From Collinsella provencensis (lineage in GTDB: Bacteria; Actinomycetota; Coriobacteriia; Coriobacteriales; Coriobacteriaceae): 64,000 nucleotides of DNA. Each line of letters starts with the position of its first letter. The stretch's first letter is position 1. The stretch spans positions 401,402 through 465,401 of the forward strand of contig NZ_LT904908.1 of the NCBI RefSeq assembly GCF_900199705.1. Direction: 5' to 3'. This document shows positions 30,869 through 32,384 of this stretch, one piece after another. A model generated the notes under the pieces. It was not told where the DNA came from and searched no databases. It saw only the letters and a program-made list of their open reading frames with translations. The position numbers were made by a program, and so were the translations under genes.

Positions 30869-31003
30869 ATTACTTCCTTTCCAAGAAATGTCATCGAAAA
30901 CATCTGTCGCGTGTCGTCTTAAACGCTTTTTGCAAGCCCATTGCGAACTTGGAAAACACTTTCGAGATGCTGCCACACAACCAATACATGCACCCTATAG
31001 ATA

Positions 31004-31039
31004 CAAAAAGAGGGCCGTCGCATTTAACGACGGCCCTCT
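31004..31039 (-). terminator. attenuator terminator upstream of cstA
   Basis: 12-bp perfect stem (AGAGGGCCGTCG at 31009-31020 with its complement at 31028-31039), 7-nt loop, followed on the minus strand by TTTTTG. It lies 135 nt before cstA and after the leader peptide. Confidence 0.85.
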
Positions 31040-31080
31040 ACCTCGCATCTGTATGTCGAGCCGCCCGTAATCCCACGGGC
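31040..31080 (-). promoter_or_regulatory. alternative pairing region of the cstA attenuator
   Basis: The segment GGCGGCTC (31065-31058) can pair over 8 bp with GAGCCGTC inside the leader ORF (31138-31131), or, with a 2-nt bulge, with the terminator's 5' arm GAG(GG)CCGTC. A third hairpin, CGCCCGT with ACGGGCG, overlaps it. These are the mutually exclusive pairings expected of translational attenuation. Confidence 0.6.
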
Positions 31081-31098
31081 GACCAGCAGCCACCCGCG

Positions 31099-31146
31099 CT
31101 AGATAATCTCAATAATGGTTAGTAGCTCGTGACGGCTCATGCTCAT
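31099..31146 (-). CDS. branched-chain amino-acid leader peptide
   Basis: 15 codons reading MSMSRHELLTIIEII, with tandem CTA Leu codons (rare in high-GC genomes) and four Ile codons (ATT ATT, ATT ATC) before TAG. AAAAGG lies about 9 nt upstream of the ATG. It is followed by competing hairpins and an intrinsic terminator, the layout of a leu/ilv-type attenuator. A ribosome stalled at CTA CTA would cover GAGCCGTC and free the antiterminator segment. Too short for ordinary gene finding. Confidence 0.8.
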   Translation of the reverse strand: MSMSRHELLTIIEII

Positions 31147-31196
31147 GATCGACAACCTTTTCTTCTTAAGACGCACCGCTCAAAGCGGCGCGTCTG

Positions 31197-31210
31197 CCAA
31201 CAGTTGTTGG
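31197..31210. promoter_or_regulatory. near-palindrome at the cstA leader start site
   Basis: CCAACA-GT-TGTTGG, two perfect 6-bp arms with a 2-bp centre, overlaps the predicted transcription start. A candidate operator for an unknown repressor. Confidence 0.35.
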
Positions 31211-31211
31211 T

Positions 31212-31239
31212 AGGATACACTCTATTTTGCTAAAGTCCA
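31212..31239 (-). promoter_or_regulatory. promoter of the cstA leader
   Basis: TGGACT (31234-31239) and TATCCT (31212-31217) with a 16-nt spacer on the minus strand, giving a start near 31205 and a leader of about 200 nt to the terminator. Each hexamer matches consensus at 4 of 6 positions. Confidence 0.4.
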
Positions 31240-31328
31240 TCCTCTTTGCTTCTCGTTACATTCATGTTTCGGATGTTTCATCTTGATAACGATGTAATTT
31301 GTCGCAAGACAAGGCATACATTCAAAAC

Positions 31329-32384
31329 CTAGCAGATCTTATGCACCCAACCGTGAACATCCTCGACCGTTCCATCCTGGATACCTGTAAGCGTCTCACG
31401 CAGGCGAGTCATAACGGGACCCATGCACTCGTGCCCCTCTTCAAACGTCACGACGTCCTTATCATCGTGAATCTCACCCACCGGGGAAATCACCGCAGCG
31501 GTACCGCACAGACCGCACTCCACAAACGCACCCGAGGCAACCTCATCCCATGTAACGGGACGCTCCTCGACATCCACATCCAAATCGCGCGCAACCTGTA
31601 CAAGCGAACGACGTGTGATGGAGGGCAAGATCGAATCGGTATGAGAAACGGGCACCACCAGCTTGCCGGAGCGATCGACAAACAGCACGTTGGCGCCACC
31701 GGTCTCCTCAACGTAGGTGCGCGACTGCGAATCCAGATAGAGATTCTCGGCAAAACCTGCAGCATGAGCATCCATACCTGATTTCAAGCTCATGGCGTAA
31801 TTAAGACCCGCCTTGATATTGCCCGTTCCATGGGGCGCCGCGCGATCATAACGCGCAACGCACAGACGGATGGGCTTGGCTCCACCCTTGAAATAAGGAC
31901 CCACGGGTGTGACCAGAATGCGGAACTGATACTCATCGGCCGGCTTGACACCGATAACATCGCCTGTAGCGATCATAAGGGGGCGCACGTACAACGTTGC
32001 ACCCGACCCAAACGGCGGAACCCATGCTGCGTTAGCACGTACAACCTGTTCAACCGCATCGACAAAACGATCCTGCGGGTACGGCGGCATCACCAAGCGC
32101 TCAGCAGAATCGGCCATGCGACGCGCGTTCAAATCAGGACGAAAGCACACGATGTCGCCATCGCGCGTGGTATAAGCCTTGAGACCTTCGAAAACCTCTT
32201 GGCAGTAATGGAAAATGCCAGCGCACTCCGAAAGCGTAATCGTGTGGTCCGCTGTAAGCTCGCCAGCGTCCCATGCACCGTTTTTCCAATTGGATACGAA
32301 GCTGTAATCGGTCTTGCGATAGTTGAAGTCCAAATTCGACCAATCAAGTTGCTTTTTCTTCGCACCCAAGTTCTCTGTAATCAT
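31329..32384 (-). CDS. ilvE: branched-chain amino-acid aminotransferase
   Basis: 351 aa fold-type IV PLP enzyme of the IlvE-II group. The PLP lysine is in GTGNIKAGLNYAMS; YVEETGGANVLFV and the LPSITRRSL segment are family motifs. It interconverts Leu, Ile and Val with their keto acids. AAGGAAGG lies upstream of the ATG. It precedes the cstA attenuator; the two genes share a branched-chain amino-acid theme. Confidence 0.95.
   Translation of the reverse strand: MITENLGAKKKQLDWSNLDFNYRKTDYSFVSNWKNGAWDAGELTADHTITLSECAGIFHYCQEVFEGLKAYTTRDGDIVCFRPDLNARRMADSAERLVMPPYPQDRFVDAVEQVVRANAAWVPPFGSGATLYVRPLMIATGDVIGVKPADEYQFRILVTPVGPYFKGGAKPIRLCVARYDRAAPHGTGNIKAGLNYAMSLKSGMDAHAAGFAENLYLDSQSRTYVEETGGANVLFVDRSGKLVVPVSHTDSILPSITRRSLVQVARDLDVDVEERPVTWDEVASGAFVECGLCGTAAVISPVGEIHDDKDVVTFEEGHECMGPVMTRLRETLTGIQDGTVEDVHGWVHKIC

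Follow-up and report, generated by a model that had tools for sequence, protein, structure and literature searches.

Comparative evidence for a predicted leader-peptide attenuator with leucine and isoleucine codons upstream of cstA in Collinsella and its relatives

In E. coli-type attenuators such as those of ilvGMEDA, leu and his, a leader peptide with control codons, mutually exclusive hairpins and an intrinsic terminator act together, the position of the ribosome being the signal. The element upstream of cstA described here has leader control codons, exclusive hairpins and an intrinsic terminator in common with these systems. However, it comprises five segments, of which the first immediately follows the stop codon, and precedes a transporter gene, in many cases in genomes that lack a key biosynthesis family, whereas the E. 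coli systems control biosynthesis operons. The ilvB-II, ilvB-OMG and ilvB motifs, which precede ilvB, have upstream open reading frames (ORFs) rich in branched-chain codons, and attenuation has been proposed for them; ilvB-II is assigned to Corynebacterium and the ilvB motif to Leptospira (PMC10272879). Actinobacterial attenuators and LEU elements possess leader peptides with Ile/Val/Leu codons before ilvB, leuA and leuS (PMC1262725); its main text contains no occurrence of cstA, Coriobacter or Collinsella. The cstA element resembles the ilvB-type motifs in its ORF with branched-chain codons but differs in its target, cstA, and in having no Rfam match; it resembles the actinobacterial attenuators in its Ile/Leu codons but differs in its target gene.

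A study on E. coli describes upregulation of cstA-type genes during carbon starvation, and neither "attenuat" nor "leader" occurs in its text (PMC7730263). E. coli CstA belongs to the same protein family, whereas in Collinsella and its relatives the conserved control region is a leader peptide. A study covering histidine control lists Collinsella intestinalis under a repressor (PMC9413887). A preliminary description of the present locus knew of no comparable case, and searches of an open-access collection likewise yielded no attenuator at cstA and no branched-chain attenuation in Coriobacteriia; an attenuator at cstA is likely new to the literature.

The leader region between ilvE and cstA

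On the minus strand of the window (the whole 64,000-nucleotide stretch of Collinsella provencensis DNA analyzed, to which all positions refer) ilvE is followed by a gap and then by cstA (Table 1). In this gap are a promoter-like pair, an ORF of 15 codons, further complementary stretches and a terminator of 13 pairs with a tract of five U. Re-reading of the minus strand confirmed the coordinates and sequences of the preliminary description. The terminator stem (31039-31009) has 13 pairs and a 5-nt loop followed by TTTTT, and it ends, as had been proposed, 135 nt before the cstA ATG (30868). The leader ORF reads ATG AGC ATG AGC CGT CAC GAG CTA CTA ACC ATT ATT GAG ATT ATC TAG, and its GAGCCGTC (31138-31131) is complementary to GGCGGCTC (31065-31058, minus strand). 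Folding of the strand 31175-30998 was significantly more stable than that of shuffled versions (z -5.88; 0/200 shuffles as good).

The promoter-like pair (31239-31212) is weak, with 8/12 consensus positions by hand count; a promoter scan left it unflagged and flagged another site, 30894-30867, instead. With one regular expression such a pair was found in 19/37 family rows, the window row included, mostly with TTGACT or TTGACG, 89-99 nt upstream of the leader ATG in 18 rows and 72 nt upstream in one. An Rfam 15 scan of the window revealed nothing above the gathering threshold except a tRNA, and a low-threshold search of 30900-31300 gave six matches, none of them a T-box and the best scoring 22.5 bits (cut-off 50); in the absence of an Rfam match, a T-box or other Rfam RNA was rejected as the identity of the element.

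An inverted repeat, CCAACA-GT-TGTTGG, was observed at 31197-31210, just 3' of the -10-like hexamer of the leader, and represents a possible operator site. A strong hairpin without a U tract (GACGCGCCGC TTTGA GCGGTGCGTC, minus strand, 31170-31194) is located in the 5' region of this transcript, ahead of the Shine-Dalgarno-like AAAAGG of the leader.

Table 1. Features of the ilvE-cstA region (positions in the window)
Feature	Position	Strand	Basis or remark
ilvE, branched-chain aminotransferase, upstream neighbor	31329..32384	-	outside the conserved unit
-35-like TGGACT	31234..31239	-	sequence
-10-like TATCCT	31212..31217	-	sequence; 16-nt spacer from -35-like TGGACT
Leader peptide ORF MSMSRHELLTIIEII	31099..31146	-	sequence; equivalent in relatives
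Segment 0, GAGCCGTC within the leader, pairing partner of segment 3	31131..31138	-	sequence; own-versus-swapped test
Leader control codons	CTA CTA 31125-31120; ATT ATT 31116-31111; ATT ATC 31107-31102	-	
Segment 1, CGCGGGTGGC, immediately 3' of the stop codon	31089..31098	-	helix 1:2 covariation
Segment 2, GTCGCCCGTG, partner of 1 or 3	31074..31083	-	covariation of 1:2 and 2:3
Segment 3, ACGGGCGGCTCG, possible partners 0, 2 or 4	31057..31068	-	pairing tests
Segment 4, terminator 5' arm; also predicted antiterminator partner of segment 3	31027..31039	-	
Segment 5, terminator 3' arm	31009..31021	-	helix 4:5 covariation
Terminator U tract (TTTTT)	31004..31008	-	sequence
cstA, downstream gene, 629 aa	28979..30868	-	Pfam PF02554

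Conservation of the leader and of its alternative helices

A search for cstA detected the gene in 41/43 genomes of the genus and 62/65 of the family, with two copies in the window genome. When the upstream DNA was read by script, an equivalent leader was present before 63/63 family cstA copies (62/62 cstA-bearing genomes), which argues that the window leader is not due to chance. Each family leader consists of a short Ile/Leu/Val-rich ORF followed by CGGG, GCCCG and GGGCGGC segments and a GGCCGTC terminator arm, and a few loci, e.g., L048, L052, L053 and L062, show variants of this pattern. The window genome has another ilvE-cstA pair (L002, G000:C3:1106604-1111451), whose cstA and ilvE are 83% and 80% identical to those of the window pair and which has its own leader, MSMRRHELLLEIISIV, and a terminator.

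The leader ORF was chosen as the most L/I/V-rich short upstream frame and CTA was no criterion, so that the Ile enrichment of the leaders arises partly by construction whereas CTA is unaffected. CTA was found in 37/37 non-redundant family leaders and in 42/43 aligned leaders, and at least two Ile codons (partly by ORF choice) in 37/37. In the family leaders 44/57 Leu codons are written CTA, compared with 8/387 in eight window genes. Thus, the Leu/Ile codons of the leader are kept in relatives, although the tandem CTA proposed as the control site occurs in only 6/43 aligned leaders, a single CTA being the conserved form in cstA leaders. Ile occupies codon -2 in 34 of the 37 leaders, -6 in 24, -7 in 20 and -5 in 18, and a Shine-Dalgarno-like motif precedes 28/37 leaders versus 91/740 control windows. 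Segment 3 contains TAGC in only 8/37 family leaders, indicating that CTA is not kept merely for pairing there; retention of CTA only as a pairing partner was rejected, as TAGC is missing from this segment in 29/37 leaders, all of which have CTA.

To compare the pairings, 43 sequences (37 from the family, 6 from outside) were aligned after removal of those with >93% identity to a kept one; kinship among them inflates all of the following covariation and swap tests. Helix 1:2 was paired in 86.0% of cells, with double changes in 9/11 pairs (slid controls at most 42.2% paired), helix 2:3 in 84.8%, with double changes in 4/8 pairs (at most 53.4%), and the terminator helix 4:5 in 92.9%, with double changes in 8/12 pairs (at most 67.9%). 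The covariation score of each of the three helices was reached by 0/500 shuffles; in the 2:3 test, one slid control had more double-change pairs (5 vs 4) but far fewer such cells (6 vs 21). Column 92 of segment 2 can pair with both its segment 1 and its segment 3 partners in 35/43 rows. Because segment 2 is shared, covariation of both 1:2 and 2:3 is what would be predicted for mutually exclusive helices. Duplex energies of own versus swapped partners gave z -8.8 for 1:2, -6.2 for 2:3, -14.0 for 4:5 and, over 43 rows, -6.2 for the pairing of the leader with segment 3, with 0/2000 permutations as good in each test. The proposed pairing of the leader with GGCGGCTC is just one of two routes by which segment 3 can be sequestered; conservation is better for the other switch, in which the post-stop hairpin 1:2 competes with helix 2:3.

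The predicted antiterminator helix 3:4 is conserved without covariation. It was paired in 86.3% of cells versus at most 64.0% in slid versions; the 43-sequence alignment contained no double change and showed no own-versus-swapped difference (z +0.3), and pooling with elements of other genes (50/58 sequences usable) gave a non-significant trend (z -1.8; 203/5000 permutations as good). By eye, most cstA elements have CGGC in segment 3 and GCCG in segment 4, and six elements of other genes (L190, L195, L196, L197, L200, L220) have CAGC and GCTG, respectively. Compensatory changes, suggested as a check in the preliminary description, are hence present in 1:2, 2:3 and 4:5 but lacking in the antiterminator, which was numbered 2:3 there.

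These comparisons, made at the level of DNA, demonstrated the ORF, its codons, the terminator, the covarying helices and their place before cstA. The leader in all family copies together with the covarying helices supports the attenuator reading given earlier for cstA. We infer translation of the leader, ribosome stalling and read-through as follows. RNA polymerase would start at the promoter 31239-31212 and a ribosome would translate the leader. With ample Ile and Leu, the ribosome at the stop codon would cover segment 1, CGCGGGTGGC, and segment 2 would pair with segment 3, leaving segment 4 free to form the terminator with segment 5, so that transcription would end before cstA. With the ribosome stalled at CTA or at one of the first Ile codons, the anti-3 segment of the leader would be covered and segment 1 would pair with segment 2; segment 3 would then pair with segment 4 as antiterminator, and cstA would be transcribed. 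In transcripts with no ribosome, the leader or segment 2 would tend to hold segment 3 and the terminator would form.

The effect of the ribosome position was modeled by folding the transcript to the end of segment 4 after its 5' portion had been cut back to 13 nt from the beginning of the A-site codon, this 13-nt footprint being an assumption. Counting changes of 1 bp or more relative to a ribosome at the stop codon, a Leu stall increased 3:4 pairing in 35/43 sequences and decreased it in 1/43; for a ribosome at the first Ile codon the counts were 36/43 and 1/43, respectively. Mean 3:4 pairing was 6.8 bp with the Leu stall, 1.6 bp at the stop codon, 1.4 bp at the last Ile codon and 2.2 bp with no ribosome, and the window element changed from 10.7 bp (Leu stall) to 0.2 bp (stop). 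The low 3:4 pairing with a ribosome at the last Ile codon makes the early codons the predicted sensors. The predicted switch was absent in 8/43 sequences: the same-genome paralogue L002, L010, L028, L030, L032, L049, L057 and L133, the last with a reversed effect. Region-blind masked folding of 42/43 rows gave a mean gain of 0.28, compared with 0.01 in dinucleotide shuffles of the post-stop stretch; 28/42 rows were above 0.2 and one below -0.2 (16% and 12% of shuffles, respectively). The comparative data strongly support a leader-peptide attenuator with Leu/Ile codons before cstA, its response to Ile/Leu being predicted: the conserved leader and five segments very probably constitute a ribosome-mediated transcription attenuator that would activate cstA in response to a shortage of charged Ile- or Leu-tRNA.

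Distribution of the element and its target genes

A covariance model built from the 43-sequence alignment identified in the window genome the two full-length cstA leaders and two weak matches, which are the same terminators read backwards. The model matched 92/395 genomes of the order. In the family it matched all 62 cstA-bearing genomes and none of the three without cstA (3/3), which repeats the ORF result because most of those or near-identical sequences trained the model. Outside the family, matches directly upstream of cstA were found in 10/61 (f2), 3/64 (f4) and 0/8 (other) cstA-matching genomes, counts which were taken by coordinates with strict filters and are lower bounds. In a sample spread over the phylum, 17/396 genomes had a match at E 1e-6, all 17 from this order.

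Out-of-sample matches of the model precede MHS-type symporters and genes resembling 2-oxo-acid enzymes. The MHS-type MFS symporter, whose best NCBIfam match is TIGR00883 below its cut-off, follows the element in other families of the order (L192-L198, L200, L201, L206, L212-L226). A symporter search at E 1e-120 found 15/395 genomes, and 13/15 have an Ile-containing leader with such segments; the remaining two are G186 and G220. In G186 only the 3' part of the terminator is kept before the symporter, the contig ending ~300 nt upstream, and the model match lies on another contig. There was zero overlap between the 15 symporter genomes and the 75 genomes with attenuated cstA, which fits, but does not prove, that symporter and CstA do one job. 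At L188 the element precedes genes for a 2-oxo-acid hydratase-like and then a ketopantoate-reductase-like protein, at L187 a ketopantoate-reductase-like protein alone, and at L190 and L191, by eye, hydratase-like proteins; these four elements come from G028, G124 and G152. The locus L189 (G224:C42) stops at a contig end, before its downstream gene.

Masked folding favored the switch by >0.1 in 13/15 elements of other genes, the exceptions being L191 and L195. None of the 15 other-gene leaders examined has CTA, all have Ile and some have no Leu, which makes Ile the common denominator.

Weak matches in G066, G099, G293, G349, G209 and G166 were excluded from membership. The one in G066 (L199, G066:C2:101500-106300) comprises a leader-like ORF, MRDKPADLIKPVVVID, and a terminator, directly followed by the gene for a CobW-like GTPase; this genome has no cstA match. 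In the related genus g39 (G148, G150, G151, G155, G162, G163, G176 and others) the cstA matches span an in-frame TAG, which may reflect either a disrupted gene or similarity extending past the stop.

Role of CstA and alternative explanations

The window CstA met the Pfam CstA family (468.7 bits) but reached only 192.8 of the 1188 bits of the equivalog cut-off of NF011590 (E. coli-type CstA pyruvate/proton symporter), so that the E. coli specificity is not transferable to it; no solved structure of a CstA relative was found by sequence at E 0.01. The ilvE-cstA setting given in the preliminary description is true of the window genome, yet among the fetched loci (tblastn; flanks mostly 1.5 to 6 kb) ilvE lies beside cstA only at the two loci of that genome. 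In several relatives (G013, G014, G019, G029, G039, G040, G041) ilvE shares the strand of cstA and lies about 7 to 25 kb upstream of it, suggesting that the tight pair in the window genome may be a compaction of an older neighborhood.

The window genome (1.74 Mb, 99.89% completeness) has two ilvE genes and no match to the Pfam models PF01450 (ketol-acid reductoisomerase) and PF00920 (IlvD). In the family, ilvE is present in 63/65 genomes, PF00920 in 44/65 and PF01450 in 31/65; 34/65 have no PF01450 and 21, a few of them incomplete, neither of the two families. Since PF01450 is missing from many carriers, pyruvate imported by CstA could not yield branched-chain amino acids there by the usual route. 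Pyruvate uptake feeding Val/Leu/Ile synthesis was rejected as a misfit for the window genome, where PF01450 and PF00920 are absent though ilvE is present twice. With these two branched-chain biosynthesis families absent, CstA of this organism would serve uptake. This leaves three candidates for the imported compound: branched-chain 2-oxo acids that IlvE would aminate, pyruvate in a general response, or peptides, so that the peptide import suggested in the preliminary description is one option among several. The purpose of the control would presumably be to bring in Ile/Leu or something yielding them.

It is quite possible that the attenuator is real and that Ile/Leu serve as a proxy for general starvation, CstA importing pyruvate or peptides as a carbon and nitrogen source and not specifically to provide branched-chain amino acids; this concerns the purpose and leaves the mechanism unchanged. 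In favor of it, E. coli CstA imports pyruvate, with pyruvate and bromopyruvate as the only competitors in competition tests (PMC7730263), a result which speaks against broad 2-oxo-acid uptake by E. coli CstA; CstA is also named a peptide transporter (PMC5847655). Against it, the low NCBIfam score does not allow the transfer of this specificity, and a branched-chain theme is suggested by the occurrence of the element also before an unrelated symporter and before genes resembling 2-oxo-acid enzymes. We tentatively consider, as a less likely reading, a small uptake regulon: an Ile/Leu attenuator class of this order, new to the literature, would precede cstA or, in other genomes, an unrelated MHS-type symporter and occasionally 2-oxo-acid enzymes, and CstA would import branched-chain 2-oxo acids (or peptides), with IlvE forming Ile, Leu and Val. 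Such a role would explain why two ilvE-cstA neighborhoods exist in a genome from which the remaining pathway has been lost.

TnaC is a leader peptide that senses a small molecule by nascent-chain arrest. An action of this kind, instead of scarcity of charged tRNA, would fit the Q-L-x-I-I-S-x-I-I-like peptide recurring in many Collinsella leaders; it is very improbable here, since the peptides diverge widely between groups (MNVRHLSIAIEIIA, MFQASKHSQIEITNII, MNLLVTLISITSVIS) with Ile as the main common feature, and Leu in cstA leaders is mostly encoded by the one rare codon CTA (44/57), which points to tRNA decoding. Finally, the idea that the hairpins do no more than end ilvE transcription and that the short ORF is fortuitous, for which ilvE lies suitably upstream of a good intrinsic terminator, was rejected with near certainty, because leader, segments and terminator stay with cstA where the fetched flank has no ilvE, the leader is separated from ilvE by a promoter-like site, and the alternative helices covary.

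An Ile/Leu-responsive attenuator at cstA, as preferred here, would tie a poorly understood transporter to amino-acid supply. It would indicate which shortage the cell seems to expect the transporter to relieve and would offer a direct handle on the substrate question for the widespread CstA-family transporters, for which pyruvate and peptides have both been named in E. coli. The context is that of gut bacteria of which about half (34/65 family genomes) lack ketol-acid reductoisomerase, and with this element leader-peptide attenuation would reach beyond biosynthesis operons and include the uptake of nutrients in a major gut lineage.
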